A DNA stretch of 39,688 nt from Clostridiales bacterium (lineage in GTDB: Bacteria; Bacillota; Clostridia; Lachnospirales; Lachnospiraceae), in contig JAJQAA010000054.1 of assembly GCA_021204045.1 (NCBI GenBank), forward strand, positions 1 through 39,688. Direction: 5' to 3'. The first letter of the stretch is position 1; the number at the start of each line of letters is the position of its first letter. Below, in pieces: positions 11,471 to 39,688 of the stretch. A program made the position numbers and the translations under genes. A model generated the notes under the pieces. That model was given only the letters and a program-made list of their open reading frames with translations, did no database searches and was not told where the DNA came from.

Positions 11471-11498
11471 CGTTCATCATATCGCAACGGATGTCTTA

Positions 11499-12749: not shown

Positions 12750-12755
12750 TGATTT

Positions 12756-14138: not shown

Positions 14139-14142
14139 AAAT

Positions 14143-14170: not shown

Positions 14171-14248
14171 TTACTGACCCGACCCATTTTGGGAACTACC
14201 CATTTCCAGAAAGTTTCATAACCGCGATTTGAGCTTGGAGGTACAGAT

Positions 14249-14262
14249 TGTACAATTGTACA
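14249..14262. promoter_or_regulatory. Palindromic site TGTACAATTGTACA
   Basis: A perfect 14-bp dyad lies immediately after the stop of the aminotransferase pseudogene, with a further GTACA half-site at 14241-14245. It has the look of an operator for a dimeric regulator, but no regulator gene is nearby and its position at a 3' end is unusual. Confidence 0.35.
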
Positions 14263-14264
14263 TA

Positions 14265-15461: not shown

Positions 15462-15581
15462 AAATAGTGTATTTCCTTTCGTAAATAAATTTTTTAAGCA
15501 CGTAATTATTGACCAGATACCGAGCACAAAGAACATAATATAAAGTGCGACGGTATTGACCAAGATTACCGGGAAGCATGG

Positions 15582-15695
15582 GAGCGCTCTTCTGGCTCGC
15601 TTGCACTCATTATATCGTGATTTCATCACGATCAAAATTCGCCGCTCGCCATGAGTGCACGAGCGCCCTCCTGGCTCGCTTTCGCTCATTATATC
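15582..15695. repeat. Composite repeat element: 35-bp direct repeats around hairpins
   Basis: Two 35-bp direct repeats (15582-15616 and 15661-15695) share GAGCGC, CTGGCTCGCTT and CTCATTATATC with a few mismatches. Between them lie a CGTGAT/ATCACG hairpin (15616-15630 region) and an inverted pair TGCACTCAT (15602-15610) / ATGAGTGCA (15651-15659). The element fills most of the 271-base gap between the flippase gene and the aminotransferase pseudogene; nothing coding is convincing there. It looks like a mobile or REP-type intergenic repeat that also carries TATAAT boxes. Confidence 0.65.
15609..15637 (-). promoter_or_regulatory. Possible promoter for the aminotransferase pseudogene
   Basis: On the minus strand TTTTGA (15637-15632), a 17-base spacer and TATAAT (15614-15609). 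The -10 box is supplied by the repeat element, and the second repeat copy carries another TATAAT without a matching -35. Confidence 0.4.
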
Positions 15696-15732
15696 ACAAA
15701 CGGGAGTTTCAGGCCGTTATTTTAATATGAAT

Positions 15733-17331
15733 TTAAAAATATATGTGCATCAGTCCCAGCAGCCCGCCATAGCAGCAGCCGACAAACAAAATCTGCAGGG
15801 ATGCCCGGATAAACAATGGCAGCCAGGCAGGGAGCGGAAGCAATACGGCGAAGAAGCGGTGGATACCCAGGGAGATAATCAAGAGCAGAGCCGGTTTGAC
15901 GAGCATATCCCAGGCGTTCCAGGTGAAGGGGACGAGATGCTTCAGCGAGTGCAAATGTAGTAGTGCCAGCAGCAGCTCACTGGCGAGCATACCGATGAGG
16001 CAGGCATGGATACCGCAGCGGGGGATGCCAAATACCACAAAGCCAATACGCAGAAGCAGTGCGGCGGTATTCTGCAGGAAAGTCGTGCGCGTGCGGCCGA
16101 GGCCGTTTAAGATACTGCCCATGGTGGTGGCCAGGTATAAAAACGGGCAGAGCCAGGCGAGAACCTGTATAAACTGACCGGCCTGCGTGTCCCGGAAGAC
16201 GCCCAACCCCAGCTCCATGCCGAATTCCGTAAAGATACCGATACAGAAGATGCCCATGTAGAGACTGTAGCGCAGGGAAATGGAGATACTGGCGGCGATG
16301 CTGCCGCGACGGCCCTCCGCCTGGGCCTGCGCGACATTGGGCAGCAGGAGAACGGCCATCGAATTGGTGATCGCGGATGGGAAGAGGATAAAAGGCAGCG
16401 CCATGCCGGAGAGTACGCCATAGACGGCGAATGCCTCATTATCGGAGAGACCAAAGAGACGGAGACTTCCGGGAATCCAGACGGCTTCGGCGGCGCCGAG
16501 CAGATTGAGAACAAGGCGGCTGCCCATGAGTGGTAAAGCCAGTGCCATGAGCGGCTGAGCGGCAAACAGATCGATGAGAACATGAACGTTATCTGCTTCG
16601 GAACTTGCTTCAGAGTTCGCTCCGGAGCCCTCGTCAGAGCCTGCTTTAGAGATGCTGTTTTGCGACGGAGCCAGCCGCAGGCAGAGTGCATTAAAAAGAA
16701 AGGCTCCGACCTCGCCGATGAGATGGCCGATGACGGCAAGGCGAACCGTGAGTATATGTCTCTGTGCGAGCGCAGTGAAGGCCAGAAGAGAGACGAGACT
16801 CATGCGGATCAGTTGCTCAGCGACCTGGGAGAAGGCCGGAACCTGTGGACGCTGCATACCATAATAATAGCCGTTGATACAGGAGTGGACGGCCGCAAAC
16901 GGTACGGAAAGCCCCATGAGCGGCAGAAGCGGTGCCAGGCGCGGTTCGAGCAGGATGTAAGAGGCCAGCCAGTCCACGTAACGGCAGATCAGGAAGGCCA
17001 GTGTGGCGGCCATGGCCAGCGAAAGGATCAGGCCGGTGGTCAGAATGCGTCGCCCACGCTGGCGGTTGGCGGCAATATATTGCGACAGGGCGGTCTGCAT
17101 GGATCCGGCGCACAGCGCGAAGCAGATGCCGTAGATGGGGTGGATCAGGTTGAACTGTCCTAGCCCTTCGGCTCCGATTGTACGGGAGAGAAAGATGCGG
17201 TAAAAGAATCCGAGCACACGGCAGAGAAAGCCGGTTCCGGTGAGCAGCAGGGTTCCGGCAAGAAACGCCCGCCTGTTTTTGGAAAGCGGAAAAGAAAGCA
17301 GGAAAGAAGACAGAAAAGTGGGCAGATGCAT
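15733..17331 (-). CDS. Polysaccharide/lipid flippase, SpoVB-like (MOP/MATE superfamily)
   Basis: Integral membrane protein of 532 residues with about 12-14 hydrophobic segments. The opening (FLAGTLLLTGTGFLCRVLGF, then IGAEGLGQFNLIHPIY) is typical of stage V sporulation protein B and related flippases that move lipid-linked glycan precursors across the membrane. A Ser/Gly/Glu/Asp-rich stretch at roughly residues 228-252 interrupts the middle of the protein and is likely a cytoplasmic loop insertion. GGAGG lies 5 bases before ATG 17331. The gene is divergent from the cysteine desulfurase operon. SpoVB-type proteins are usual in spore formers, but YtgP/MurJ-like roles in wall synthesis cannot be excluded. 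Confidence 0.87.
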   Translation of the reverse strand: MHLPTFLSSFLLSFPLSKNRRAFLAGTLLLTGTGFLCRVLGFFYRIFLSRTIGAEGLGQFNLIHPIYGICFALCAGSMQTALSQYIAANRQRGRRILTTGLILSLAMAATLAFLICRYVDWLASYILLEPRLAPLLPLMGLSVPFAAVHSCINGYYYGMQRPQVPAFSQVAEQLIRMSLVSLLAFTALAQRHILTVRLAVIGHLIGEVGAFLFNALCLRLAPSQNSISKAGSDEGSGANSEASSEADNVHVLIDLFAAQPLMALALPLMGSRLVLNLLGAAEAVWIPGSLRLFGLSDNEAFAVYGVLSGMALPFILFPSAITNSMAVLLLPNVAQAQAEGRRGSIAASISISLRYSLYMGIFCIGIFTEFGMELGLGVFRDTQAGQFIQVLAWLCPFLYLATTMGSILNGLGRTRTTFLQNTAALLLRIGFVVFGIPRCGIHACLIGMLASELLLALLHLHSLKHLVPFTWNAWDMLVKPALLLIISLGIHRFFAVLLPLPAWLPLFIRASLQILFVGCCYGGLLGLMHIYF

Positions 17332-25514: not shown

Positions 25515-27364
25515 TTCTGCCGTTTCTCCTTCAATGCGAGCCGTTCTGAGAGATCCTGGCCGCCCACGCCGTATACCAGGAAGAGGATGACACCGGACAC
25601 GATCATGATGAATACCGTGGAAGCGCAGCGGCGTCCGGAGGCGTTGACATTGTACCCGAAGAGTCCTTCATCCTGGCACATGCTCTGGATGACCATGGAA
25701 TAGGTTGTGCCGTAGGTACTGGAGAAGGTGGCCGACATCTCGTACTCAGTGAACAGAGCGTTGAAATTGAGGGCGAACACGGCCAGCACGCTGGGCAGGA
25801 TAATCGGAAGCTTGACGCGCAGGAACGTGGTCAGGCCGCTGGCTCCGAGGTTTCGCGCCGCGTCCTCTAATTCCTCGTCAATCGCGTAAAACGCCGCCTT
25901 GATCATGCGCAGGGAGAACGGCAGCTTTGTGACCGTATAGGCCAGAATAATCAGAATACGGACATTCTCGGCATAGTACAGGTTTGTGTTGCCCACATAC
26001 CACACGGAGGTGCTGTTGAAAAAGATCCGGTAGGAATAGCAGATCAGGATCGTCGGCAGCAGCCAGGGGAAGAGCAGGCTGTATTCAAGCACCATGCCGC
26101 GCTTTTTGTTGCGGTTTTTGAAAATGTAATTGCAGGCCACGACGACGATGACGCAGGCCAGCAGCGCCGCGATCGCCGATAAGAGAAAGCTGGTCTTGAT
26201 GCCGGCGATCGTAGCCTCGTTGGAAAAGACGCCGGAAATCGAGTTTGTCCGCGTCTTATAGGTGCCGCGGGAGGTCAGGTACTGGTAATCTTCCGTGCCG
26301 AAGAAATTGACGAGCGTCCAGTTGCTGAGATCGATTTTCTTCATGCGGATGGCGCTGTAGGTCTGGAAGGAGAAAATGAGGATCATCACCACCGGGACCA
26401 TGTAGATGATAAACAGCGCGTAGGCGTAAATGTGTGCGATGACATTGGCCACCGGGTTGGTGATTTTCTGCTTCTGCAGCTTGGTCTTGGTCTTGGAGAC
26501 CGAGAGGTAATGCCCCTTGCGCTCATAGGAGGAAAGGATCGTCAGCAGGATAATCGTGAACGTCGCCAGGATGATAGACAGTAGGGCCGCGCGCGCCTGG
26601 GGAAATGATTCGTCCGCGGTGGAGGAACCGGCCAGGCGGACGATCTCCGGGTTGATCGAGTCATAACCGAGCAGCTGCGGAGCCGACATGGCGCACAGGC
26701 CGGTGATGAAGGTCATGATCGTCAGCGAGAACAGGGTGGGCAGCAGCGTGGGAAAAACCACCTTCATCAGCACGGAAAACGGCTTCGCGCCCATATTGCG
26801 CGCTGCCTCCACCGTGTTGTAATCGATGCTGCGGATCGCGTTGCGCAGAAAGAGGATGTGGTTGCTCGTGCAGGCGAAGGTCATCGTAAAGAGCACCGCC
26901 TTGAAGCCCGAGAACCAGTTGGGGCTGAGGCCGGGGAACGCATTGACCAGAAGGTTGGTGAGAATGCCATCGCTGTCATATAAAAACAGGTAGCCGGTGA
27001 CCAGCGCGACGCCGCTGTAGATCAGGGTGGTCATATAGCCCAGGCGCAGGATGCGCGCGCCGCGGATATCGAAATATTCCGTGAGGACGACGATTGAAAT
27101 GCCGACCACATTCACGGTGATCACGAGGCAGACGGCGAGCTTTAAGGAGTTCCATACGTATTTGGCCATGTTTCCGGCGAAAAAGAAGCGGATAACCGCC
27201 CAGGGGTCCGTCTCGCCGGCGGCGTTTGTGGTAGTGAAAATGCTGGTGAGCGTGTTCCAGCAGGGGATCAGCATCCAGCCGAAAAACAGGTAAATGAAGA
27301 ATAATGCGCCGACTACTTTGATCAGCAGCTCGGGGCGCAGCCGTTTTCCTTTTGCCTGATTCAT
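25460..27364 (-). CDS. ABC transporter fused double permease, AfuB type
   Basis: Membrane subunit of 634 residues with two BPD_transp_1 halves. The ATPase-contact loops are EAARNMGAKPFSVLMKVVFP in the first half and EDAARNLGASGLTTFLRVKLP in the second. A long soluble loop between the halves (around residues 340-385) is larger than usual, and the C-terminus is a basic tail. ATG 27364 is chosen because GGGAGG (in the last codons of the ATPase gene) is 7-8 bases upstream; the earlier ATG at 27379 would overlap that site. It is 4 bases downstream of the ATPase stop, and its own end overlaps the NAGPA gene. Together with the neighbouring ATPase and binding protein it makes a complete importer. Confidence 0.91.
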   Translation of the reverse strand: MNQAKGKRLRPELLIKVVGALFFIYLFFGWMLIPCWNTLTSIFTTTNAAGETDPWAVIRFFFAGNMAKYVWNSLKLAVCLVITVNVVGISIVVLTEYFDIRGARILRLGYMTTLIYSGVALVTGYLFLYDSDGILTNLLVNAFPGLSPNWFSGFKAVLFTMTFACTSNHILFLRNAIRSIDYNTVEAARNMGAKPFSVLMKVVFPTLLPTLFSLTIMTFITGLCAMSAPQLLGYDSINPEIVRLAGSSTADESFPQARAALLSIILATFTIILLTILSSYERKGHYLSVSKTKTKLQKQKITNPVANVIAHIYAYALFIIYMVPVVMILIFSFQTYSAIRMKKIDLSNWTLVNFFGTEDYQYLTSRGTYKTRTNSISGVFSNEATIAGIKTSFLLSAIAALLACVIVVVACNYIFKNRNKKRGMVLEYSLLFPWLLPTILICYSYRIFFNSTSVWYVGNTNLYYAENVRILIILAYTVTKLPFSLRMIKAAFYAIDEELEDAARNLGASGLTTFLRVKLPIILPSVLAVFALNFNALFTEYEMSATFSSTYGTTYSMVIQSMCQDEGLFGYNVNASGRRCASTVFIMIVSGVILFLVYGVGGQDLSERLALKEKRQKWIERIKKKVHKTSENAA

Positions 27365-27368
27365 ACGT

Positions 27369-28415
27369 TTACCTCCCACTGCCTGAATTGCCTGCGTTGC
27401 CGGAAGCCGTGTAGGACATCACGTCGCGCGCGTTGAGCACGGCCGTGACGGATTCGCCCGCCTCGTAAATATTGGCGCCGTCGTTGCGCTCGATCACTTT
27501 AATAATCTGGCATCCCAGGTCGATGTAATACTTGATGTACAGGCCGTAATATTCGCGCTTCTGCACGATACCGGGCAGTCCGACGTCGCCGCTCTGCAGG
27601 GCGGCGTTTACGTGAATGCGCTCCAGGCGGATGTAGTTGTGGTCGTCTCTGTTCAATGCGCCGCCCTGTCTGATCAGCTGGTCAACGACCTCATCCGCGA
27701 GGCGGTTGATATCGCCGATGAAATTGCAGACGAACTCGGTATCGGAGTGGTTGTAAATCTCATTGGGGGTGCCGATCTGTTCGATCACGCCCTTGTTGAA
27801 CACGGCGATGCGGTCGGACAACGTCAGCGCTTCCTCCTGATCGTGCGTGACGTAGATGGTGGTGATGCCGAAATCGGCCTGCATCTTTTTCAGCTCGTTG
27901 CGTAGCTGGATGCGCAGCTTCGCGTCGAGGTTGCTGAGCGGCTCGTCAAGACAGATGATGGAAGGATCCGTAACCAGGGCGCGGGCGATGGCCACACGCT
28001 GCTGCTGACCTCCGGAGAGCTGGCTTACAGCCTTGCCCAGCTGCTCGTCGGACAGATCCACCTTGCGGGCGATCTCCCGGACCTTCTGGTCGCGTTCTGC
28101 CCGTTTCATTTTTTTGATCTTTAAGCCGAACGCGATATTGTCATAGACCGTCATCGTGGGAAAGAGGGCGTAGCTCTGAAATACCATTCCGATATTTCGC
28201 TCCTCGATGGGGACGTGGGTAATGTCGGCGCCCTTGACCATCACCGTGCCCTGCGTCGGTTCGATAAAGCCGGTCAGGGTCCGCAGCGTCGTGGTCTTTC
28301 CACAGCCGGAGGGACCGAGGAATGTGAAAAATTCCCCTTCCTTCACATGCACGCTGACATGGTCCAGGGCAGTAAAATCCCCAAATTTTACAACGATATC
28401 ATTGAGCCTGATCAT
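27369..28415 (-). CDS. ABC transporter ATPase, AfuC/PotA/FbpC type
   Basis: Cytoplasmic ATPase, 348 residues. Walker A GPSGCGKT (34-41), Q-loop VFQSYALFP, signature LSGGQQQR (133-140), Walker B IICLDEP (153-159) and H-loop VTHDQEEA are all intact. The C-terminal 110 residues form a TOBE-like domain, as in iron, phosphonate, polyamine and sugar-phosphate importers. AAAGGAG precedes the ATG. It lies between the binding protein (204 bases upstream, separated by hairpins) and the permease. Because the T-box-controlled importer at 8615-11395 has no ATPase, this subunit could serve both systems, as is known for MsmX-type shared ATPases; that is inference. Confidence 0.94.
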   Translation of the reverse strand: MIRLNDIVVKFGDFTALDHVSVHVKEGEFFTFLGPSGCGKTTTLRTLTGFIEPTQGTVMVKGADITHVPIEERNIGMVFQSYALFPTMTVYDNIAFGLKIKKMKRAERDQKVREIARKVDLSDEQLGKAVSQLSGGQQQRVAIARALVTDPSIICLDEPLSNLDAKLRIQLRNELKKMQADFGITTIYVTHDQEEALTLSDRIAVFNKGVIEQIGTPNEIYNHSDTEFVCNFIGDINRLADEVVDQLIRQGGALNRDDHNYIRLERIHVNAALQSGDVGLPGIVQKREYYGLYIKYYIDLGCQIIKVIERNDGANIYEAGESVTAVLNARDVMSYTASGNAGNSGSGR

Positions 28416-28490
28416 ACTCGCTTACTCCTTTATCCGTAATGGGTCTGTCTTGAGAATGCCGTAAACTTACAGAAGCAACGGCTTATACAG

Positions 28491-28571
28491 CATGCGGCGA
28501 ACCGGTTCTGGTTCGCCGCATGAGGTGTGGCAGCAGGATTTTTAAATGTAAGGAACAGGAAAAATCCTGCC
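28491..28571 (-). other. Two strong hairpins between binding-protein and ATPase genes
   Basis: In the minus-strand transcript the first hairpin uses GCAGGATTTTT (28533-28543) with AAAAATCCTGC (28561-28571). The second is a perfect 13-bp stem, CATGCGGCGAACC (28491-28503) with GGTTCGCCGCATG (28510-28522). They fill the 204-base gap after the binding-protein stop. Such structures often protect the upstream message or partly stop transcription, giving more binding protein than membrane complex. Confidence 0.7.
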
Positions 28572-28619
28572 GCCGTTTTTCAGAAATTATTGCCGCAAGG
28601 GTGTTTCGCCATTTTGGCG

Positions 28620-29918
28620 TCAGCCCGCGGACTGGGTCAGGGTGCTCCAGTCGAGGTTATCCCAGTCAGGCTCGGCGACCGCGCTGCTGTCGTCTGCCCA
28701 GAAGAAGCCCAGGTTGGTCTCGATGTTGGTCCACTCGGTGAGGTGTGCCGCGACATATTCCGCATAGGTCATATCGGTACCTTCGATGGTGGCCAGGGAG
28801 AAGTTGGGCAGCGTGTACATCTCCGGAACGCCGTCCGGATACATGATAGCGGCTGCTTCCTGGTTGCAGGGGAAGGAATCGAATTCTTCGCTCCACGCTA
28901 CCTGGACGTCTGCGGAACCAAACCACTCAGCGAACGCCTTCACAGCTTCGGTCTGCTCCTCGGTGCGGCCCTTCTTGTCCAGAATACCAAGGTACTCAGC
29001 GATGTAGTAGGTGCCGTCTTCGATATCAACCAGGGACCAGTTCTCCGGCTCAGAGGTGCCGCGCAGCGGGTTCTCGGAGGAATCCGGAGCCGCGTCGATG
29101 TAGCCGTACAGAGCGGAAACATAGTAAGTACCGATCTGGACGTCGCCGCGGTTGAGCGGGATGATACCGAAGTTATCGCCGGTGTAGATACCGTTTGCGC
29201 AGTATTTCCACAGAGTCTTCCAGCCGTCAAGTGAGACGCCGCCAGCCTCGGAGGACGGATCCATGAACGGATAGAGGATCGCGCTGTTGATGTTGGTGTT
29301 GGTGGTGCCGCCGATCTTGCCCTGGCGATACCAGACGTAGCCGCTGTCAACCAGATCGGCCCAGTGCTTGAAATGAAGCTCCTCGCCGTTGGTGCCCAGC
29401 TCGTCGTTGCGGTAGAGCATCAGGACGTTCTGGATGACCAGGCCGTAGGCCTTGCCGGGATACACATACTCGCCGACCTGATCGGCCCAGCTGGGCGTCC
29501 AGTCGAGAATCGAGATATTTTCATAGGTGCCGTTGACCAGCTGTCCCCAGCGGGTCTCGTTCAGGCCGAACATCAGGTCGCCGTCCTGATTCTCATTGGC
29601 CTGCTGAATGGCTTCGGTGTCGCCGTTTACGACGGTGTTGTCGTCGATGGAGATCGTAAAGCCGGCTTCCTTCGCCTCATTGATCAGCCAGGTGGTGCGC
29701 TCCACGGAGTTGGAGTTGGAATAAATGCGGATCGTGTAATCCGAGTAATCCTTCTCCTCCGCCTCTTCGGCTTCCTCCGCTGCCGGAGCCTCGGCCTGTG
29801 CCGCTGCCTCGGTCGCAGCCGGCGCCGCGGTGGTGGAAGTAGAGCTGGAGCTGCTGGCGCAGGCCGTTACCGACAGGGCGGTAAATGCTGCCAGCGGAAG
29901 CAAAAATATTTTTTTCAT
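28620..29918 (-). CDS. ABC transporter solute-binding lipoprotein (family 1)
   Basis: Extracellular binding subunit of 432 residues. The signal peptide ends in the lipobox VTAC (Cys20), followed by a Ser/Thr then Ala/Glu-rich linker to about residue 57. The binding fold begins YTIRIYSNSNSVERTTWLI and is rich in Trp/Tyr, for example DWTPSWADQVGEY, which would suit a sugar-like or aromatic ligand. Similar lengths occur in the iron/spermidine/phosphonate cluster, so the ligand cannot be stated. AAGGAGG at 9 bases upstream sets the ATG at 29918. It is first in the operon leading to the AfuC-like ATPase, fused permease and NAGPA protein, and it is divergent from an alpha-glucosidase. Confidence 0.9.
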   Translation of the reverse strand: MKKIFLLPLAAFTALSVTACASSSSSTSTTAAPAATEAAAQAEAPAAEEAEEAEEKDYSDYTIRIYSNSNSVERTTWLINEAKEAGFTISIDDNTVVNGDTEAIQQANENQDGDLMFGLNETRWGQLVNGTYENISILDWTPSWADQVGEYVYPGKAYGLVIQNVLMLYRNDELGTNGEELHFKHWADLVDSGYVWYRQGKIGGTTNTNINSAILYPFMDPSSEAGGVSLDGWKTLWKYCANGIYTGDNFGIIPLNRGDVQIGTYYVSALYGYIDAAPDSSENPLRGTSEPENWSLVDIEDGTYYIAEYLGILDKKGRTEEQTEAVKAFAEWFGSADVQVAWSEEFDSFPCNQEAAAIMYPDGVPEMYTLPNFSLATIEGTDMTYAEYVAAHLTEWTNIETNLGFFWADDSSAVAEPDWDNLDWSTLTQSAG

Positions 29919-29994
29919 ACTGTCTATCCTCCTTATGTTTTTCCGTATGCCAAGTCAGAACATGGTTGTGTGATTTGACCGACATTCTTTTCAG

Positions 29995-30023
29995 ATTATA
30001 CCAGTAAATTGTTAATTCCGCAA
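29995..30023 (-). promoter_or_regulatory. Sigma-A promoter of the binding-protein operon
   Basis: On the minus strand TTGCGG (30023-30018), a 17-base spacer and TATAAT (30000-29995), 77 bases before the binding-protein ATG. Confidence 0.65.
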
Positions 30024-30131
30024 TAAAATTCAGTAAACTAAGGAAAAAATTTGCCACGTGGTTTGCTGCGGCGATCCGGAAGATATTTGTATCTGCGAAT
30101 TTCGAAAAAGATAGAAAATACTGACACGATG

Positions 30132-30140
30132 TGGTATCAT
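30132..30140 (+). promoter_or_regulatory. Possible extended -10 promoter for the alpha-glucosidase
   Basis: TGGTATCAT (30132-30140) fits an extended -10 element; no good -35 is seen 17 bases upstream. It is 45 bases before the alpha-glucosidase ATG. The divergent spacer 29919-30185 holds no convincing gene. Confidence 0.35.
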
Positions 30141-30185
30141 GGTGAATGTTGAAGATTGATCGAAAGAAAGGGAACGGGAAACGGT

Positions 30186-31856
30186 ATGAAGCGCTGGTGG
30201 AAAGAAGCGGTGGTTTACCAGATTTACACGAAGAGTTTTTACGACACAAACGGGGACGGGATCGGCGATATCCGCGGGATCATTGAAAAGCTGGATTATA
30301 TCCAGGCGCTGGGGGTGACCGTGATTTATCTTAATCCCATCTACCGTTCGCCGGATGTGGATAACGGATACGATATATCGGATTTTCGGGACATCAACGA
30401 GCGCTACGGGACGTTGGAGGATTTTAAGGAATTACTGGCCGAGGTTCATCGGCGGGGGATGCGTCTGATCATGGATATGGTGGTGAACCACACCTCCGAC
30501 GAGCATCCATGGTTTCAGGAATCCAGGAAATCAAAGGACAATCCATACCGGAACTATTACTATTGGCGTCCGGGAAAAAACGGGAAGGAGCCAAACAACT
30601 GGGGGAATTATTTTTACGAGGGGCGCGGCTCGGCCTGGGAGTACGATGAGACGACGGGGGAGTATTATCTGCACAATTATTCCCGGAAGATGCCGGATCT
30701 GAACTGGGGCTGCGAGGCCGTGAAAGAGGACATGTGCCGCATGATGCGCTGGTGGCTGGATATGGGCGTCGACGGCTTCCGCATGGACGCGGTCAACCGC
30801 CTGGTCAAGCCCGAGGGTCTGCCGGATTCCCCGAATCCGCCCGCGCCGCCGGTCGGCATCCACGGCTATGTGGTGGACCGCACGATGTGCGCGAACCGCC
30901 CCGGCATCCACGAGCTTCTGCACGAGATCAATGAAAAGGTGTTTAGCCGCTATGACATCATGGTGGTCGGCGAGACCGGCAATGTGGACGCGGCGCTGGC
31001 GATCGATTACGTCCAGGAGGAGCGCCGGGAGATCGACATGGTGTTCCATTTTGAGATTGCGAAGAATCCGACGCCCGGGAACGCGCTGACTTTTAAGGAC
31101 GCGCAGAAGCGCTGGTACCATGTGATCGAGCAGCACGGCTGGACGACGCAGTATCTTTCCAACCACGACACGCCGCGCCAGGTGTCGCAGTTCGGGAATG
31201 ACCGGGAATACCGCTATGAGTCGGCAACGATGCTGGCGGCGCTGATGCACACTCACCCGGGCACGGTCTTTATCTATCAGGGCGAGGAGATCGGCATGAC
31301 AAATGTGGACTTTCCTTCGATCGAGTATTATAATGAAAGATACACCGTGGGGAAATATTACACGATGGTGGAGAGCGGTGTAGACCCGAAGACGGCGCTG
31401 GATTCGTTAAAAGGCATGAGCCGGGACAATGACCGCACGCCTATGCAGTGGAGCGGCGCCGAAAACGGCAGGTTCACGACGGGTACGCCCTGGATGCATG
31501 TGAACCCCAATTATCCGGAAATCAACGTGGAGCGGGAGGAAACGCTGGAAAAATCGGTGCTGCGCTTTTACCGCAGGCTGACTGCGCTACGCCGGGAAAA
31601 TCCGGTCATGGTTTACGGCAGCTACCGCCAGCTGCTGGAAGAAGACGCGGAGCTCATCGTCTACGAGCGGGAGTACGAGGGCGTTTGCTGGCTGATCATC
31701 TGTAATTATTATTCCAATGAACGGGAGTTTCCGCAGTCTGTGGCGGAGCGCCTGAAGGCGGGGCAGGCCAGACTGCTTTTGGGAAACTACGATGTGACAG
31801 ACGGGGGAGAACGGATCCGGCCGTATGAGGCCAGGATATACGATATTTTGCTTTGA
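30186..31856 (+). CDS. Alpha-glucosidase, GH13 (oligo-1,6-glucosidase/trehalose-6-P hydrolase group)
   Basis: Cytosolic GH13 hydrolase, 556 residues, acting on the non-reducing end of small alpha-glucosides. It begins WWKEAVVYQIYTKSF as in the MalL/TreC group. The catalytic residues are in place: nucleophile Asp201 (DGFRMDAVN), acid/base Glu263 (VVGETGN) and Asp328 (LSNHDTPR). MPDLNW (169-174) replaces the QPDLN often seen in oligo-1,6-glucosidases, and Ala202 follows the nucleophile where Val or Thr usually predicts alpha-1,6 or alpha-1,4 preference, so specificity is open. ATG 30186 gives the family N-terminus; an in-frame TTG at 30156 is less likely. It is divergent from the importer operon, which suggests it acts on the imported sugar. 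Confidence 0.93.
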   Translation: MKRWWKEAVVYQIYTKSFYDTNGDGIGDIRGIIEKLDYIQALGVTVIYLNPIYRSPDVDNGYDISDFRDINERYGTLEDFKELLAEVHRRGMRLIMDMVVNHTSDEHPWFQESRKSKDNPYRNYYYWRPGKNGKEPNNWGNYFYEGRGSAWEYDETTGEYYLHNYSRKMPDLNWGCEAVKEDMCRMMRWWLDMGVDGFRMDAVNRLVKPEGLPDSPNPPAPPVGIHGYVVDRTMCANRPGIHELLHEINEKVFSRYDIMVVGETGNVDAALAIDYVQEERREIDMVFHFEIAKNPTPGNALTFKDAQKRWYHVIEQHGWTTQYLSNHDTPRQVSQFGNDREYRYESATMLAALMHTHPGTVFIYQGEEIGMTNVDFPSIEYYNERYTVGKYYTMVESGVDPKTALDSLKGMSRDNDRTPMQWSGAENGRFTTGTPWMHVNPNYPEINVEREETLEKSVLRFYRRLTALRRENPVMVYGSYRQLLEEDAELIVYEREYEGVCWLIICNYYSNEREFPQSVAERLKAGQARLLLGNYDVTDGGERIRPYEARIYDILL

Positions 31857-31948
31857 CGTTCCAATGATTTCAATGATATGACGACATCGCCATCGATCCA
31901 TGATCGGCGCCATCGATGCCATCATTCAGCGCCATCATGAGAAAAAAC

Positions 31949-31977
31949 TTTACATTCGACCATTCCTGTGTTAAGAT
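31949..31977 (+). promoter_or_regulatory. Sigma-A promoter for the AGCS symporter
   Basis: TTTACA (31949-31954), a 17-base spacer and TAAGAT (31972-31977), giving a leader of about 145 bases that contains a terminator-like hairpin. Confidence 0.65.
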
Positions 31978-32024
31978 GATCAGGTATGTAACTTCGAGAG
32001 AACGAAATCGAAAGCCGGAAAACT

Positions 32025-32066
32025 TCGCAGGTGAGGGAAACGCTCATGCTGCGATTTTTTATTTTT
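32025..32066 (+). terminator. Leader terminator hairpin upstream of the symporter
   Basis: TCGCAG (32025-32030) pairs with CTGCGA (32049-32054), extended inside by GTGAG/CTCAT, and is followed by six T residues and then another T5. It lies between the promoter and the symporter start, so full expression needs readthrough. The upstream leader (31984-32024) has a repeated ACTTCG and a TTCG/CGAA hairpin that could form an alternative fold. I do not recognise a known riboswitch class. Confidence 0.6.
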
Positions 32067-32130
32067 ACGCAAATGAAAGGCGCTCGATATTTTTTCTTTC
32101 GGGAATGGCACGGTGTAAGGAGGAAATGCT

Positions 32131-33615
32131 ATGTTGGAACTGATTACAAAAGGAAATGACCTGGTAAACGGAATCGTCTGGGGCTGGCCGGCGCTGATTT
32201 TGCTGGCTTTCGTGGGCGTGCTGATGACCTGCCTGACGAAGGTTTTTCAGCTGACCCATCTGGGACACTGGGTGAAGATGACCATCGGCGCCATTTTCAG
32301 CGACAGGGATGTGCTCAGCCATACGTCGGACAAATCCATTTCCCAGTTCCAGTCTTTGTGTACGGCACTGGCCGCAACTGTGGGAACCGGTAATATTGTC
32401 GGCGTGGCCGGCGCGATCATGGTCGGCGGACCGGGCGCAGTATTCTGGATGTGGCTGATCGCGTTTTTCGGCATGATGACCAACTATTCTGAAAATGTGC
32501 TTGGTATCTATTACCGCAGAAAAAATCATGCGGGTGAATGGTCAGGCGGAGCCATGTATTATCTGCGGGATGGCCTGGGCGCGATACAGGGCTGCAAGGG
32601 GATCGGAGCCGTGCTGGCGGTGCTGTTTTCCATCTTTTGTTTCCTGGCGTCCTTTGGTATTGGCAATATGACCCAGGTCAATTCGATTTCCGGAAATATG
32701 GATTCGGTGTTCGGCGTGCCGACCTGGATCACCGGCATTGTGGTTATGGTGATCGCGGGGTTGGTGATCGTCGGCGGATTGAAGCGGATCGCGTCGGTCA
32801 CGGAGAAGATTGTTCCCTTCATGGTGGTGCTGTACATAGTCGGGAGCATTGTGATTCTGATTACCAATCTGTCGCATGTCGGCGCGGTGTTCGGCGCGAT
32901 TTTCCGCGGCGCTTTTGCGCTCCAGGCGGCTGGCGGCGCGGTAGTCGGATATGGAATCAAGCTTGCGATCGAGCAGGGCATGAAGCGCGGTGTGTTTTCC
33001 AATGAAGCCGGTCTCGGTTCTTCCGTTATGGTTCACTCCAATTCCAACGTCAGTGAGCCGGTCCGTCAGGGCATGTGGGGGATTTTTGAGGTATTCGCGG
33101 ACACGATCATTGTATGTACGCTGACCGCGTTTTCCGTGCTTTCTTCTGGGCTGGTGGATCTGGAGACCGGGGAGACCGCGGCGGAATACGCGGGGGTTGC
33201 CCTGACCAAGGCCAATATCGTGGCGACTGTGTTCTCGATGCATTTCGGACAGGTCGGCGCGGCTTTTGTGGCGATCGCCATTATGCTGTTCGCGTTCTCC
33301 ACGACGCTGGGCTGGAGCCATTACGGGACGAAAGCTTGTGAATTTCTGTTTGGTGAGAAATATACGATTATCTATCGTGTGATCTTTGTGGCAGCGATTT
33401 TCGGTGGCGCGGTGATGAGCGACAATCTGGCCTGGGATCTGGCGGATACCTTTAATGGTATGATGATGATTCCCAACCTGATTGGCGTCCTGGTCCTTTC
33501 TCCCAAGGTTTACGCGATCACGGTAAATTATGTGGACCGCATACTGAGAGGAAAGGATATCCGGCCGATGCTGTCCGCGTTCCCGGATGTGCAGGCAGAG
33601 CAGGAAACGAGATAA
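32131..33615 (+). CDS. Alanine/glycine:cation symporter (AGCS family)
   Basis: Inner-membrane sodium-coupled carrier for alanine, glycine or similar amino acids, 494 residues with about 11 hydrophobic segments. Family signatures include FQSLCTALAATVGTGNIVGV and GPGAVFWMW near residues 70-110, the GAMYYLRDGLG loop and SNEAGLGSS near the middle. AAGGAGG at 32117-32123 fixes the ATG at 32131. It sits behind a leader with an intrinsic terminator, so conditional readthrough is likely. Its stop is only 40 bases before the TerB-domain gene on the same strand with no terminator between, so the downstream module may share its transcript. Confidence 0.94.
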   Translation: MLELITKGNDLVNGIVWGWPALILLAFVGVLMTCLTKVFQLTHLGHWVKMTIGAIFSDRDVLSHTSDKSISQFQSLCTALAATVGTGNIVGVAGAIMVGGPGAVFWMWLIAFFGMMTNYSENVLGIYYRRKNHAGEWSGGAMYYLRDGLGAIQGCKGIGAVLAVLFSIFCFLASFGIGNMTQVNSISGNMDSVFGVPTWITGIVVMVIAGLVIVGGLKRIASVTEKIVPFMVVLYIVGSIVILITNLSHVGAVFGAIFRGAFALQAAGGAVVGYGIKLAIEQGMKRGVFSNEAGLGSSVMVHSNSNVSEPVRQGMWGIFEVFADTIIVCTLTAFSVLSSGLVDLETGETAAEYAGVALTKANIVATVFSMHFGQVGAAFVAIAIMLFAFSTTLGWSHYGTKACEFLFGEKYTIIYRVIFVAAIFGGAVMSDNLAWDLADTFNGMMMIPNLIGVLVLSPKVYAITVNYVDRILRGKDIRPMLSAFPDVQAEQETR

Positions 33616-33655
33616 TTTTCCCGCATTTTAAGATTGTTAAATGAGGCTTTTTGGC

Positions 33656-35161
33656 ATGGAATGGATGGAAGAACAGGAATATTATTATGAGGACGAGCCC
33701 ATCCGGCTTTCGCCGGAACGGGCCAGGAACCTCCCACCGAAGGAGTACCGGAAAATGCGGGATCTTGCCTTTGGTTCTCCTTTCTCCCGAAATAATGACG
33801 CCCAAATTTTCTACCTTCAGGCCAAATACATGGAACAGTTTGAGGACGATTGCCCCTATGACCGGGAGGTGCGGTGCTATTATCCTACCTACCAGAGTTT
33901 GTCCATGCCGGAGCTGCGGGGATATTTTACCTGGAGGACTCGGTTGCGCCATGGGAAGCTGGAACGGACGTCGCTCTCCTACGCATTTCTCTATATCTAT
34001 GAACTTCTGCATCAGATCGGCTCGGAGACGAAGGAAGACGGGCTGGATGCGCTGATATGGTTTTACAAACAGTACGGCAGTTTTGAGTACCAGATCCAGC
34101 GCTATATGAAGCGCTGGATTGTGGACTATGCGATGTATTATAATGTGCCTGTGGAACTGATCCGGGATTACGTGAATGCCGAATTTGATGAGGCGCTGGC
34201 GGCTCTGGCCAGCTGCGATACGGAGAGTGATGAGCAGCTGTTTGCCGCCATTTTGCGGCTCTCTTCCTATCATCTGGAAAAATCCAGGGCTTACAGGGAG
34301 TATCCGGAAGTGCTTGTGCGGGTAATCTGCGAGGCGTACCGCAGGATCAACGCCCGCTATGAAAAACGTTATGAACGGCCGTATTCGCGCAAGCTTTACG
34401 GCAATCCGGTAAACGCGTGGTATTACCCGTTCCGATCGGCGATATTCTACTGGCGAAAACAAAATCGATTCCAAAATTACGAATACCGCGTCAGCCCGTT
34501 GCAATGCTATTATTGCGAGGGAAACCAGTGGAGAATGGAACGGGATTATTTCGTTGCGCGGCGCAGCGGGGATCTGAATATTTTTTTGCGGACAGCCGAC
34601 CGTCTTGTGCGGGAAGCGTACGGCGTGAAGCCCGCCCTGAAAGCGAAAGAGGAACCCAGGACCATGGTGCGTTTCCTTTCCGAGGCCATCGCGGAGCAGA
34701 AAAAAACAGTCGCGGTCAAAGTGGTGTTTGATTTAAGCAAGCTGTCCGGTATTCGCAAAAGCTCGGACACGGTAGGGCAAAAGCTGATGACGGAGGAAGA
34801 ACGATATGTAGAGGCGGAATCATTTGCGACCGGGGAAGAACGCTGCAAAGAGACGGAACAGTCGGAGATGAGAGGGGAGTGTTATCCGCAGGATAAGCAG
34901 ACTGGGATGTCTGAGGAAACCTCGGCTGAGACGGACTGCGTCCTTTCCGGAAACGAGCTGCGTTTTCTGCAGCTTCTGCTGTACGGCGGGGATTTGCAGG
35001 GCTTTTTGCAGGAGAAGCATCTGATGGTTTCCGTCCTGGCGGAAGCCGTCAACGAGCGGCTCTACGACGAATTTGCCGATACGGTGATTGAATTCGACGG
35101 CAACACTCCCGTGCTTGTGGAGGATTATCTGGACGACCTGAAAGGAATGATACCAAGTTGA
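33656..35161 (+). CDS. TerB-N / TerB-C domain protein
   Basis: A soluble protein of about 501 residues. The N-terminal half has the TerB_N signature YYPTYQSLSMPELRGYF followed by TWRTRLRHG (about 75-100), then helical Tyr-rich sequence (EYQIQRYMKRWIVDYAMYYN). A variable Glu-rich segment (about 385-425) separates this from a C-terminal TerB_C-like end (VNERLYDEFADTVIEFDGN...LVEDYLDDLK). The central metal-binding TerB domain itself is not evident. TerB-family domains are linked to tellurite-resistance-type stress systems, but biochemical roles of TerB-N/C are unknown. ATG 33656 has GAGG 9 bases upstream; ATG 33641 is directly preceded by a stop and lacks such a site. Its stop overlaps the start of the ATPase gene (TTGA), so the two are co-translated. 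Confidence 0.85.
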   Translation: MEWMEEQEYYYEDEPIRLSPERARNLPPKEYRKMRDLAFGSPFSRNNDAQIFYLQAKYMEQFEDDCPYDREVRCYYPTYQSLSMPELRGYFTWRTRLRHGKLERTSLSYAFLYIYELLHQIGSETKEDGLDALIWFYKQYGSFEYQIQRYMKRWIVDYAMYYNVPVELIRDYVNAEFDEALAALASCDTESDEQLFAAILRLSSYHLEKSRAYREYPEVLVRVICEAYRRINARYEKRYERPYSRKLYGNPVNAWYYPFRSAIFYWRKQNRFQNYEYRVSPLQCYYCEGNQWRMERDYFVARRSGDLNIFLRTADRLVREAYGVKPALKAKEEPRTMVRFLSEAIAEQKKTVAVKVVFDLSKLSGIRKSSDTVGQKLMTEEERYVEAESFATGEERCKETEQSEMRGECYPQDKQTGMSEETSAETDCVLSGNELRFLQLLLYGGDLQGFLQEKHLMVSVLAEAVNERLYDEFADTVIEFDGNTPVLVEDYLDDLKGMIPS

Positions 35162-36480
35162 AGATACCAAAGCGGATTGCGAACACCCTGATGAACGCCT
35201 TAAAGGGCGGCGTTGTGCCGCGCATCGGACTGCCCTATATCACCGTCGGGCGTGAGCCGGAGATCAACGCGCTGCTCCGCGATGTGGAGATCATCGCCGA
35301 GGGCGGAGCGTCGTTCCGATTCATTTCCGGCAAATACGGAAGCGGAAAAAGTTTTCTGCTGCAGACGATCCGGAACTATGTGATGGATAAAAATTTTGTG
35401 GTGGTGGACGCCGATCTCTCGCCGGAGCGCCATTTGCAGGGGACAAAGGGACAGGGGCTTGCCACCTACAAGGAACTGATTCAGAATATGTCCACGAAGA
35501 CGCGGCCGGAGGGCGGCGCGCTGCCGTTGGTACTGGATAAATGGATCAGCGGCGTGCAGAGCAGCGTGGCGGCGGAGAGCGGGCTGGATGTTGACACAGA
35601 GGAATTTATAAAGCAGGTTCAGCAGAGAATTTTCACCGTGATCAACGAGCTGAACGGTCTGGTACACGGTTTTGATTTCGCGCGACTGCTGATCGTTTAT
35701 TATCAGGCGTATTTGGACGGGGATGAGGAGGCCAAGGCCAGAGTCGTCCGCTGGTTCCGGGGCGAATATGTGACCAAAACCGAGGCAAAGAAGGAACTGG
35801 GCGTCAATGTGATCATCACGGACGACGACTGGTATGAGTATATCAAAATTTTCGCCACATTTCTGAAAAACGCGGGCTATGCCGGGATGCTCGTGCTGAT
35901 CGATGAGCTGGTCAACATTTATAAGATCCCCAATGCCATCACCCGGCAGTATAATTACGAAAAGATTCTGACGATGTACAACGATACGCTGCAGGGCAGG
36001 GCAAAGCATCTTGGGATCATTCTCTGCGGCACGCCTCAGTGCATCGAGGACACCCGCAGGGGGATCTACAGCTACGAAGCATTGCGGTCTCGTCTGGCGG
36101 AGGGGCGGTTTTCCAAAGGAGATACGCGCGATATGCTGGCTCCCATCATCCGGCTTACGCCGCTGACCAATGAAGAAATGCTGATTCTGGTGGAAAAGCT
36201 GGCGGACATTCATGCCCAGCTCTTTGGCTATGAGCAGCGCCTGACCCAGGAGGATCTCATTACTTTTATCCAGATTGAGTACGGCCGTGTGGGTGCCGAT
36301 TCCCACATCACGCCGCGGGAGATCATACGGGATTTCATTGAACTGCTGGACATTCTGTTTCAGAATCCAAAGCGCAACGTGGCGGAGCTTATGGGTTCGG
36401 CGGATTTTTCCTACGCGAAGACGCCGCTGGAGGAGCAGGCCGCGGATCGGCTGGGAGAGTACGCGGAGTTTGAATTATAG
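35158..36480 (+). CDS. P-loop ATPase, DUF2791 (BrxD-like)
   Basis: Predicted ATP-binding protein of 440 residues. The opening PRIGLPYITVGREPEINAL is characteristic of DUF2791 proteins, the family that includes BrxD of BREX systems. Walker A is GKYGSGKS (58-65), Walker B MLVLIDE (244-250) and a sensor-like strand LGIILCGTPQ follows. A long helical segment separates the two Walker motifs, as in other members. Start is TTG 35158, with AAAGGAA at 35141-35147 and a 4-base overlap with the TerB-N/C gene; the next ATG (35191) would cut the conserved N-terminus. It sits between the TerB-N/C protein and an Lhr-like helicase, the same pairing seen for brxD-brxHI. DNA-linked function is inferred from context. 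Confidence 0.88.
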   Translation: MKIPKRIANTLMNALKGGVVPRIGLPYITVGREPEINALLRDVEIIAEGGASFRFISGKYGSGKSFLLQTIRNYVMDKNFVVVDADLSPERHLQGTKGQGLATYKELIQNMSTKTRPEGGALPLVLDKWISGVQSSVAAESGLDVDTEEFIKQVQQRIFTVINELNGLVHGFDFARLLIVYYQAYLDGDEEAKARVVRWFRGEYVTKTEAKKELGVNVIITDDDWYEYIKIFATFLKNAGYAGMLVLIDELVNIYKIPNAITRQYNYEKILTMYNDTLQGRAKHLGIILCGTPQCIEDTRRGIYSYEALRSRLAEGRFSKGDTRDMLAPIIRLTPLTNEEMLILVEKLADIHAQLFGYEQRLTQEDLITFIQIEYGRVGADSHITPREIIRDFIELLDILFQNPKRNVAELMGSADFSYAKTPLEEQAADRLGEYAEFEL

Positions 36481-36493
36481 GGAGGCGGTGCGC

Positions 36494-38809
36494 GTGAATA
36501 CTTTTGACCGTTATGCCCCGTTTATTCAGGATTATATTTATCAGAACGGCTGGGAAAACCTGCGCGCTGTGCAGGCTGCGGCGGCGGACGTGATTTTCAA
36601 CACCGACGCGAACCTGCTGCTGACGGCCTCCACTGCTTCAGGCAAGACGGAGGCCGCTTTTTTCCCTATTCTGACCCTTTTTACGGAGGATATGCCGACC
36701 TCGGTAGGAGCGATTTATATCGGTCCGCTGAAAGCATTGATTAACGACCAGTTTTTGCGGCTGAACGACCTCTGCAAGGAGGCCGGGATCCCGGTGTGGC
36801 ACTGGCACGGGGATGTGTCGGCATCCCATAAAAATAAAATGATGAAGCATCCTTCCGGGATCCTGCAGATCACGCCGGAAAGCCTGGAGGCGATGCTGCT
36901 GCGCAAACATTCCGCGATTGGCAGGCTTTTTGGCGATCTGCGATTTATTGTGATTGATGAACTCCATTCCCTGATGCGCGGTGATCGGGGCGGCCAGACC
37001 CTGTGCCTGATCGAGCGGCTTTGCCGTCTGGCGGATGTCAATCCGAGGCGCATCGGCCTATCGGCGACCATTGGCGACCCAAAAGATGCCGGGGAATTCC
37101 TCTCCGCGGGAACGGGGCGCACGACGATCGTGCCGAAGCTGCCGGCCGGCGGCGTCAAATGGCGGCTTTCGATGGAGCATTTCTATACGTTTCCGCCGAC
37201 CAATCCCGGCGCGCCGACAAAAATCCACAACCAGCCGCCGGAGGGAGTCATGCAGGTGGAAGGGGTTACGCCGGTGGATGACGCGCTCGCGCCGAAAACG
37301 GACACCGCTCCGAAGGAGGCGGATCCCGGCATCGGCTATATTTTTGAGCACACACGGGGCAAAAAGTGTCTGGTGTTTGTCAATTCCCGGGAGGAATGCG
37401 AGGCAGTCACGACGACGCTGCGGCAATATTGCGAGGCAAAGAATGAGCCGGATCGCTTTCTGATTCACCACGGCAATCTCTCGGAATCCTACCGGGAGAC
37501 GGCGGAAGCGGTGATGAAGGATGAGGAGCAATTTCAGACCACCGTGACCACGGCCACGCTGGAGCTGGGGATTGACATTGGCAGGCTGGAGCGCGCGTTC
37601 CAGATCGACGCGCCGTTTACGGTTTCCTCGTTTCTCCAGCGCATGGGACGCACGGGCCGGCGGGAGCTTCCGCCGGAGATGTGGTTTGTGATGCGGGAAG
37701 AACCGCCAGAGGCGCGGGCACTGCTGCCCGTTACCATTCCCTGGAAGCTGATCCAGGGCATTGCTCTGGTACAGCTCTACATCGAGGAACGCTGGGTGGA
37801 GCCGCCGAAGCTGGACGCGCTGCCGTACAGCCTGCTGTACCATCAGACCATGAGCACCCTGGCTTCCTGCGGGGAGATGACCCCGGCGGAGCTTGCGTCC
37901 CGCATCCTGACGCTGCGTTATTTTCAACGGGTATCCCAGGAGGATTTCCGTATACTTCTGCGCCACCTGCTGGAAACCGGGCATATTCAGCGGACGGAGG
38001 CCGGAGGACTCATCGTCGGCCTGGCCGGAGAGCGCGTGATCAACAATTTTAAGTTTTACGCGGTATTCCAGGAAAATGAAGAATACACGGTCCGCGCCGG
38101 TTCTGAGGAGCTGGGCACGATCGTGAAACCGCCGCCCGCAGGCGAGAAAATTGCTATTGCGGGTCATGTCTGGCTGGTGGATGAGGTTGATCATAAGCGG
38201 CATATGGTTTACTGCGAGATGATACGGGGAAAGGTGCCCGCCTATTTCGGCGAGGTGGCCGGTGACATTCATACGCGGATTCTCGAGCGGATGCTTGGGG
38301 TGCTTTGCGAGGAAAAATCTTATTCCTACCTCATGAAAAACGCTGTGGCGAGGCTGGAGACAGCCCGCGTTTCCGCGCGGAATTCCGGTCTGATTCATAA
38401 AAATCTGATCTGTCTGGGCGGGAACATGTATTGTCTGCTGCCTTGGCTTGGCACTTATGCGTTTCTCGCGCTGGAACGTTTCCTGAAAATCCGCTGCGGG
38501 AAGCGGCTGGGCATCCGGGGACTGGACTCTTCCCGGCCATACTTTATGCAGTTTGTCATGAATGTTTCCGAGCGAGAATTCTGGGAGATCCTTAAAGAAG
38601 AGCTGCAGCAGCCCATCGATCCGATGAGCCTGGTCTATCCCCGCGAGGTGCCGATCTTTGACAAGTACGATGAGTATCTGCCGGAGGTGCTGGTGAAAAA
38701 AGGCTTTGCCTACGGCGTGCTGGGCATCGATGAGATGAAAGAGAAGATGCTGCGGCTGTGCGGTGAGTATCTTTCCGGAGCTGTATCCCGAAAAGTATCA
38801 TGTATATAA
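36494..38809 (+). CDS. Lhr-like DEAD/DEAH superfamily 2 helicase (BrxHI-like)
   Basis: ATP-dependent helicase of 771 residues. Motif I TASTASGKT (44-52), motif II DELH (155-158), motif III SAT (190-192), a helicase C domain with CLVFVNSREE, motif V TTATLELGIDIG and motif VI QRMGRTGR (382-389) are all intact. A Pro-rich loop (about 234-279) lies between the two RecA lobes. The C-terminal 350 residues resemble the winged-helix/Lhr core extension. GTG 36494 is chosen because GGGAGG (36480-36485) lies 8 bases upstream; the frame is open further back inside the ATPase gene but is not plausible there. It is the last gene of the three-gene module and ends before a strong terminator. Confidence 0.92.
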   Translation: MNTFDRYAPFIQDYIYQNGWENLRAVQAAAADVIFNTDANLLLTASTASGKTEAAFFPILTLFTEDMPTSVGAIYIGPLKALINDQFLRLNDLCKEAGIPVWHWHGDVSASHKNKMMKHPSGILQITPESLEAMLLRKHSAIGRLFGDLRFIVIDELHSLMRGDRGGQTLCLIERLCRLADVNPRRIGLSATIGDPKDAGEFLSAGTGRTTIVPKLPAGGVKWRLSMEHFYTFPPTNPGAPTKIHNQPPEGVMQVEGVTPVDDALAPKTDTAPKEADPGIGYIFEHTRGKKCLVFVNSREECEAVTTTLRQYCEAKNEPDRFLIHHGNLSESYRETAEAVMKDEEQFQTTVTTATLELGIDIGRLERAFQIDAPFTVSSFLQRMGRTGRRELPPEMWFVMREEPPEARALLPVTIPWKLIQGIALVQLYIEERWVEPPKLDALPYSLLYHQTMSTLASCGEMTPAELASRILTLRYFQRVSQEDFRILLRHLLETGHIQRTEAGGLIVGLAGERVINNFKFYAVFQENEEYTVRAGSEELGTIVKPPPAGEKIAIAGHVWLVDEVDHKRHMVYCEMIRGKVPAYFGEVAGDIHTRILERMLGVLCEEKSYSYLMKNAVARLETARVSARNSGLIHKNLICLGGNMYCLLPWLGTYAFLALERFLKIRCGKRLGIRGLDSSRPYFMQFVMNVSEREFWEILKEELQQPIDPMSLVYPREVPIFDKYDEYLPEVLVKKGFAYGVLGIDEMKEKMLRLCGEYLSGAVSRKVSCI

Positions 38810-38813
38810 CAAA

Positions 38814-38862
38814 AAAATACGAAGCGCCGCCAGACTATAGCTGGCTGTGTGCTTCGTATTTT
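38814..38862. terminator. Bidirectional intrinsic terminator after the helicase
   Basis: AAAATACGAAGC (38814-38825) and GCTTCGTATTTT (38851-38862) form a perfect 12-bp stem, with an inner GCCAG/CTGGC hairpin as the loop. A-runs and T-runs at both ends make it work in either direction, closing the helicase operon and the nitroreductase gene. Confidence 0.85.
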
Positions 38863-38922
38863 AAAATTGTTTGCTAAATAAGATTGCTTTGTTGAGACAG
38901 CTCCCTTTGGATTGTCGTATCG

Positions 38923-39450
38923 TTACGCTCTGCGGATATAATCCTCTTTGCGCGGCTTCGCAGCCGGCGCTTCTCCCGCACCGTATCCGAGGATGCAGTT
39001 GGCTACTCCGACATAATTTTCGTCAAGTCCCCAGCTCTTCTGGAGCGTAAGTCCCTCTTCTGAGGAAAATACTTCCTTTGCGCGATAAATATAGCAGGAA
39101 TCGACGCCGACCGCGTGGGCGGCGTTTAACAGATTTCCGGCGACGAGGCAGGCATCCTCAAACCAGGTTGGAGAGGCGTTTTGGTTGCCGAAGACGATCG
39201 CGACGACCGGTGCGCCGTAGAACGGGTCAATATTGTCTCTTCCGAGTACGGCGGCGTTCATGCGGCTGATTTTTTGCACGAGCTCCGGCGTCTGCACCAG
39301 TACGATGACCGGCGATTGAGAACCCATGCCGGTAGGCGCGTAGGTCGCGGCCTCGAGGATCGCGTCAAGCTTTTCCTGCTCGACGGGTTTGTCCGTATAG
39401 CTGCGGACGCTGCGGCGGGTTTTCAGGCTGTCCAGAATTAAATTTTCCAT
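38923..39450 (-). CDS. Nitroreductase family protein
   Basis: Small FMN-dependent oxidoreductase, 175 residues, within the family range. The N-terminal FMN-binding pattern is TRRSVRSYTDKPVEQEKLDAIL followed in helix by APTGMGSQSPVIVLV, and a late GVANCILGYGAGEAPAAKPRK closes the fold. Physiological substrates of such proteins are seldom known; quinones, nitroaromatics or flavins are options. ATG 39450 is preferred because GGAGG lies about 10 bases upstream; the frame continues to 39534 but that would include the promoter. Likely a single-gene unit with promoter at 39506-39534. Confidence 0.9.
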   Translation of the reverse strand: MENLILDSLKTRRSVRSYTDKPVEQEKLDAILEAATYAPTGMGSQSPVIVLVQTPELVQKISRMNAAVLGRDNIDPFYGAPVVAIVFGNQNASPTWFEDACLVAGNLLNAAHAVGVDSCYIYRAKEVFSSEEGLTLQKSWGLDENYVGVANCILGYGAGEAPAAKPRKEDYIRRA

Positions 39451-39505
39451 CTTGAAATGTCCTCCATATTTTCTGAAAACAAAACGATTGCGTCTAAGTG
39501 ATTCC

Positions 39506-39534
39506 ATGGTAGCATGGGAAAAATGGAAAGTCAA
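39506..39534 (-). promoter_or_regulatory. Sigma-A promoter for the nitroreductase
   Basis: On the minus strand TTGACT (39534-39529), a 17-base spacer and TACCAT (39511-39506), 56 bases before the ATG at 39450. Confidence 0.6.
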
Positions 39535-39574
39535 TGGTTTGAGACAGGCATAGTGGACTCAAAACCATGGACTT
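39528..39574. repeat. Interrupted inverted repeat over the nitroreductase -35 region
   Basis: AAGTCAATGGTTTGAG (39528-39543) pairs with CTCAAAACCATGGACTT (39558-39574), with two small irregularities and a 14-base centre. Its overlap with the -35 box suggests an operator. Confidence 0.5.
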
Positions 39575-39610
39575 AAAATTTATTGACGCAGTCAACCGAA
39601 AATAAAAGAG

Positions 39611-39639
39611 TTTACTTTTTAAATGTTTTCGTGTATAAT
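39611..39639 (+). promoter_or_regulatory. Sigma-A promoter facing out of the window
   Basis: TTTACT (39611-39616), a 17-base spacer and TATAAT (39634-39639). A GAGGTGG-like ribosome binding site follows at about 39669-39675, so a plus-strand gene probably starts at or just beyond the window end. Too little is present to identify it. Confidence 0.6.
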
Positions 39640-39688
39640 CCCGTTTTCGACACTTTGAGATTGGAAAAGAGGTGGAGCCCTTTGTAAA

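Follow-up and report, generated by a model that had tools for sequence, protein, structure and literature searches.

A Shango (SngABC) operon in a Clostridiales genome and the uneven evolution of its SngA protein

A three-gene operon was found at positions 33656-38809 of a 39,688-nucleotide stretch of DNA (contig JAJQAA010000054.1 of the Clostridiales bacterium assembly GCA_021204045.1; the whole stretch is referred to here as the window), and it very probably represents the Shango (SngABC) anti-phage system, kept by this Clostridia genome as a lone three-gene cassette. The assignment was made because the PADLOC profiles for SngA, SngB and SngC all match, each across most of its length. They were the top matches of the first (2e-63, 213.8 bits, profile positions 64-527 of 528), second (4.5e-192, 637 bits, 5-431 of 439) and third gene (6e-275, 912.5 bits, 5-715 of 720) respectively. 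The PADLOC profiles for BrxD (164 bits) and BrxHI (399 bits) rank behind those for SngB and SngC, and on these profile scores the resemblance of the two proteins to BrxD and BrxHI is secondary to their Shango identity. The domain calls of an initial annotation of this DNA agree with Pfam, which places TerB_N (PF13208, 2.6e-29) and TerB_C (PF15615, 4.2e-20) in SngA, BrxC_BrxD (PF10923, 7.9e-170) in SngB, and DEAD (1.1e-25) and Helicase_C (3.2e-17) in SngC; the genome contains one TerB_N match. The ATPase and helicase motifs were also described there as intact, and what we take to be the Walker A (GxYGxGKS) and Walker B (DE) motifs of SngB and helicase motifs I-VI of SngC are indeed intact and conserved across the aligned relatives. 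Among solved structures, the SngB profile found no sequence match at E<=0.01 and SngA none of note.

The initial annotation had proposed a stand-alone defence module. A defence-type set of TerB_N/C, BrxD-like and BrxHI-like genes without PglZ is present, but it is Shango and not an undescribed candidate. The find is sound yet not new, since these genes form one more copy of a system that has already been assayed in other bacteria.

An E. coli copy of Shango is reportedly the work of Millman (2022). In Pseudomonas aeruginosa PA14, Shango is an operon of TerB-like, ATPase and helicase genes that lowers the efficiency of plating on PAO1 by 10-100-fold for many phages, not all, according to PMC10250203, where a ~10-fold effect of the E. 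coli copy on two phages is also mentioned (its ref. 22). By analogy with these copies, anti-phage activity would be expected of the operon in the window. The window shares the gene content and PADLOC families of Shango, and its gene order recurs in L205, a copy on an E. coli plasmid. The window SngB is 40.5% identical to the plasmid SngB, whereas the window SngA is shorter (501-506 residues against 769 in L205) and has no central TerB domain (PF05099).

The operon resembles the BrxD/BrxHI dyad of type-2 BREX in that an AAA+ ATPase adjoins an Lhr-like helicase, and the Brx profiles do match. It differs from the dyad in its TerB_N/C partner, in the absence of a nearby PglZ and in the score of the window SngB against the NCBI BrxD equivalog NF033438 (164.8 bits, below the cut-off of 350); BREX membership was rejected on the last two grounds. 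No PglZ was matched in the window's genome, and in 30 genomes carrying SngA or a strong SngB no match shares a contig with Shango at a distance of 20 kb or less, although one could still lie across a contig gap because the contigs are broken. This agrees with the earlier suggestion of a pair that stands without PglZ. PglZ was matched at E<=0.001 in four of the 30 genomes, and above the Pfam cut-off in two (clearly in G095, marginally in G195). The sole match sharing a contig with Shango, in G271, is below that cut-off and lies ~136 kb away. Neither BrxC nor a PglX-type methyltransferase was seen on reading the open reading frames of 24000-39688, no genome-wide search having been made for either.

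All three reading frames lie on the forward strand in the order A-B-C and are tightly packed (Table 1). Translation of sngA may start at the ATG at 33656 (501 residues), 40 bases from the stop codon of the preceding symporter gene, or at an in-frame ATG at 33641 (506 residues), with the stop at 35161. The TTG start of sngB at 35158 gives a 4-base overlap, and the GTG start of sngC at 36494, with GGGAGG just 5' of it, follows a gap of 13 bases; the coordinates, overlap and gap are all as initially annotated. The strong terminator noted behind the genes was likewise recovered as a hairpin at 38814-38862, with a folding energy of -27.6 kcal/mol, whereas shuffled sequences average -12.2 (z -5.7; none of 200 folds as well). 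This hairpin is absent from the list of a simple terminator scan, and a simple promoter and terminator scan listed no promoter-like site on the forward strand from 33000 to the operon.

Table 1. Coordinates of the operon and adjoining features in the window.
Feature	Position	Strand	Evidence
sngA	33656..35161	+	Open reading frame, Pfam, PADLOC, structure model
sngB, BrxD-like AAA+ ATPase	35158..36480	+	Open reading frame, Pfam, PADLOC, motif conservation
sngC, BrxHI/Lhr-like SF2 DEAH helicase	36494..38809	+	Open reading frame, Pfam, PADLOC, motif conservation
Hairpin terminator, 5' side A-rich, 3' side T-rich	38814..38862	+	Folding against shuffles
Sodium:alanine symporter (AlsT), flanking, outside the system	32131..33615	+	Open reading frame, domain check
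Nitroreductase, flanking, outside the system	38923..39450	-	Open reading frame, domain check

The TerB_N domain of SngA was located at ~33791-34369 and the TerB_C domain at ~34691-35143, the latter split by a disordered linker (~34811-34930), and the last ~75 residues are winged-helix-like in the structure model. For the fold of the SngA body the best Foldseek E was 0.67, and a second comparison covers mainly residues 421-501, which gives no ground for calling the fold new. The central TerB domain (PF05099), which a table in PMC10952713 assigns to Shango, was found in none of 53 SngA proteins, the window's included (E<=0.01), and in six of ten more distant ones. We take this domain to be a variable, non-defining feature of Shango as far as the sequences indicate, because the PADLOC SngA profile is matched without it. 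The N-terminal part of SngA diverges faster than SngB in all 12 close pairs compared, and it was clearly exchanged once between near-identical SngB-SngC sets. To our knowledge, neither the TerB-less SngA nor the fast N-terminal divergence has been reported. The fast-changing SngA may be a clue to how Shango recognises its target. Unusual arrangements occur at the SngA position. A radical SAM domain was matched (E 1e-10) in one of 20 SngA proteins; judging from N-terminal cysteines, this is probably the 889-residue frame at L112:10554-13220, which may be a real fusion or an artefact of the start site. On a Burkholderia contaminans plasmid (L242:3149-7601) SngB-like and helicase genes are preceded by an unrelated 254-residue protein.

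Shango was found to be patchy in its genus and family. Of the 24 genomes in the genus, among them that of the window, five have a strong SngB match and nine have any SngB match, four of them weak (best E 9e-10 to 1.5e-15). In 250 genomes of the family, SngA was found in 25 and SngB in 31, 25 of these with at least 498 bits (own genome counted). SngA and a strong SngB are present together in 24 family genomes and are adjacent on one contig in 22, as compared by eye; they lie on separate contigs in G066 and G092, while G154 has only SngA and G218 only SngB. A housekeeping gene set, whose universal conservation the initial annotation had set against its own proposal, was rejected on this patchy presence. 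Four congeners without Shango (G003, G005, G015 and G017; L007-L017) carry adjoining pairs of ATPase frames of ~380-430 residues that are weakly SngB-like, and matches of this kind occur in some family genomes.

Beyond the family, a scan of GTDB genomes gave at least 589 SngB relatives, of which 80 were kept; together with one viral locus, 81 loci were examined, and 60 of them extend for 2 kb or more upstream and 2.5 kb or more downstream. The loci were chosen by SngB; no further than 1.5 kb from it, 55 of the 60 have both SngA and SngC, four only SngA and one only SngC. Both partners therefore stand beside SngB in 55 of the 59 genome loci with enough flank, and the three families do co-occur, which had been proposed as a check. 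The SngC-only locus is the viral contig L204, in which PADLOC does detect SngA. Two of the four loci without a near SngC carry it further downstream (L148 and L187), and in L155 and L199 none was found in the stretch examined. Among genus and family loci, SngC is present in 19 of the 20 examined. Four frames, including peptidase S51-like and GNAT proteins, lie between sngB and sngC at L148:5646-8150, a large serine recombinase lies downstream of sngB in L155, and L110 is a decayed copy in which the SngA next to SngB is short and SngC was not found in the stretch examined.

In a rapidly built tree with 89 rows of SngB, the nearest neighbours of the window come from bins of Lachnospiraceae or Clostridiales. 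Rows from Desulfovibrio, Bacteroidales and Coriobacteriia fall within a mainly Bacillota group, with long branches flagged; stray contigs are possible, because many rows are bins. SngB-like matches were found in 692 plasmid records, a number that may include other BrxD-like proteins, and in none of 50,697 phage records. IMG/VR contains one relative, L204, where a complete Shango at 7716-14674, its SngA having TerB_N, TerB and TerB_C, is followed by a DUF7690/DUF7687 protein.

When positions 30001-39688 of the window were compared with four congener loci, DNA similarity was confined to the operon. Shango has passed between the lineages of the congeners G006 and G008, because the synonymous divergence (dS) of SngB and SngC is low against that of the yardstick genes and the block that they share comes to an end at either side. 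SngB is 98.2% identical in amino acids (dS 0.21) and SngC 96.6% (0.28), against 85.6% (1.27) for RpoB, 76.2% (2.93) for the ParC-like protein and 83.0% (1.89) for AlsT; three genes serve as yardsticks, and dS is saturated at values near or above 1. The block (L104, ~10,630 to 16,509) consists of Shango and a glycine-transporter-family gene, and outside it, on both sides, identity drops to ~39-50% and the flanks are unrelated. In the sister pair G006-G009, dS is 0.44-0.64 for SngB, SngC, RpoB, ParC-like and AlsT alike. Between the window and G007, dS is 0.94 for SngB and 0.95 for RpoB, values that would fit common descent of the window copy together with a change of location. In each of G006-G009, the four congeners that have Shango, the best matches to AlsT and to nitroreductase lie on different contigs, and that to AlsT is not on the contig of Shango. 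No empty site was found, and the flanking repeats are only short, chance-like ones. The glycine-transporter-family gene behind Shango (L104:15853-16548), whose DNA moved along between G006 and G008, has matching DNA in L105 and L107 (three congeners).

Apart from the operon, no defence-like genes were seen on reading the frames of 24000-39688, with four flanking proteins checked for domains. The neighbourhood was scanned with PADLOC at 1e-10 over 126 proteins of at least 110 residues within 5 kb of 15 of the 21 Shango loci (window, L104-L123); L110, L117 and L120-L123 were left out, the last four loci making up 32 of the 158 prepared proteins, and the window contributes <1 kb downstream. A control scan took in 119 proteins encoded no more than 6 kb from AlsT-like genes at 12 loci of the same genus. 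Matches near Shango are scattered, with no family above 1 of 126 among the 25 of 85 listed, and the control reaches 2 of 119 per family among the 25 of 67 listed. In this comparison, which is of per-family tallies and not of an exact count of proteins matched, the control is no poorer in defence matches because its per-family maximum is 2/119 against 1/126; the 5 kb around Shango showed neither a defence island nor a clear excess over the control. Elsewhere in the window, the sigma-70 consensus hexamers TTGACA and TATAAT occur without mismatch and with an 18-base spacer at 8087-8116, with a chance expectation of 0.02, and a 918-residue frame near transporter-like genes (22758-25514) has a C-terminal phosphodiester glycosidase (NAGPA) domain as its sole Pfam match at 1e-3.

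Our literature searches on Shango and its gene set, judged mostly by title and abstract opening, recognised no paper on its mechanism. PMC12839542 gives BrxD an ORC/Cdc6 AAA+ make-up and proposes that it loads or activates BrxHI, and in PMC12278908 SngC, BrxHI, DruE and DpdJ are described as a potentially distinct clade of defence helicases. We infer, tentatively, that Shango could work in a comparable way as loader, helicase and adaptor. SngB, as an ORC/Cdc6-type AAA+ ATPase, would load or activate SngC on phage DNA that is invading or being replicated, and the movement of the helicase would block phage replication. SngA would be the adaptor: its winged-helix-like C-terminal tail would dock on SngB or DNA, and its fast-evolving N-terminal part would respond to a phage cue and thereby determine specificity. 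Pfam detects no nuclease domain in SngA, SngB or SngC; infection would therefore have to be ended by strand separation itself, by host nucleases or by an unrecognised activity of SngA.

That last possibility leads to a reversed assignment of roles, which we consider possible but rather doubtful, with the helicase SngC as sensor and SngA as effector. Its precedent is Hachiman, where the effector HamA is restrained by the helicase HamB in the model given in PMC12278908, and where an SF2 helicase likewise acts with a partner protein in defence. The lack of a Pfam nuclease in the three proteins calls for an unrecognised effector somewhere, and the N-terminal part of SngA evolves fastest, as effectors can do. 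However, SngA has no Pfam toxin or nuclease domain, and its conserved polar residues, which include an R88/R94/R98/E116 patch, show by eye no standout catalytic pattern. Shango differs from Hachiman in its partner protein, and SngC scores low against the HamB profiles (43 bits at best).

TerB_N/C families have been tied to stress and DNA processing, and together with the matches to the BrxD and BrxHI profiles and the lack of a clear defence neighbourhood this would suit a BREX-derived pair that serves DNA repair or stress with its TerB_N/C protein and has no part in phage defence. We regard this as improbable, given that the Sng profiles far outscore the Brx profiles, that Shango is patchy and moves horizontally among congeners, and that anti-phage activity is reported for a related copy (PMC10250203). 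A decayed or silent copy carried by chance is very improbable. No promoter-like site was listed upstream and decayed copies such as L110 (short SngA, no SngC found) do occur, but all three frames and their motifs are intact here, and the ratio of nonsynonymous to synonymous divergence is 0.03-0.07 for SngB and SngC in all 20 congener comparisons (10 pairs each).

Returning to Shango as loader, helicase and adaptor, the system might be seen as a modular engine, a speculative picture that may well prove wrong. A conserved SngB-SngC DNA motor would dock exchangeable adaptors, with the SngA tail staying with the motor and the N-terminal part being swapped or diversified around the linker, which would alter recognition; a Bacillota-centred branch would do so with no TerB core, and on one plasmid an unrelated small protein occupies the position of SngA.

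The find, uncertain at the outset, now has a name, and the comparison adds to the data on Shango, a defence system for which a 2026 review (PMC12926258) gives the mechanism as unknown. In an otherwise ordinary member of Shango, the details of SngA are the part worth bench testing, as its N-terminal divergence and single exchange point to the N-terminal half of SngA as a possible determinant of phage range.
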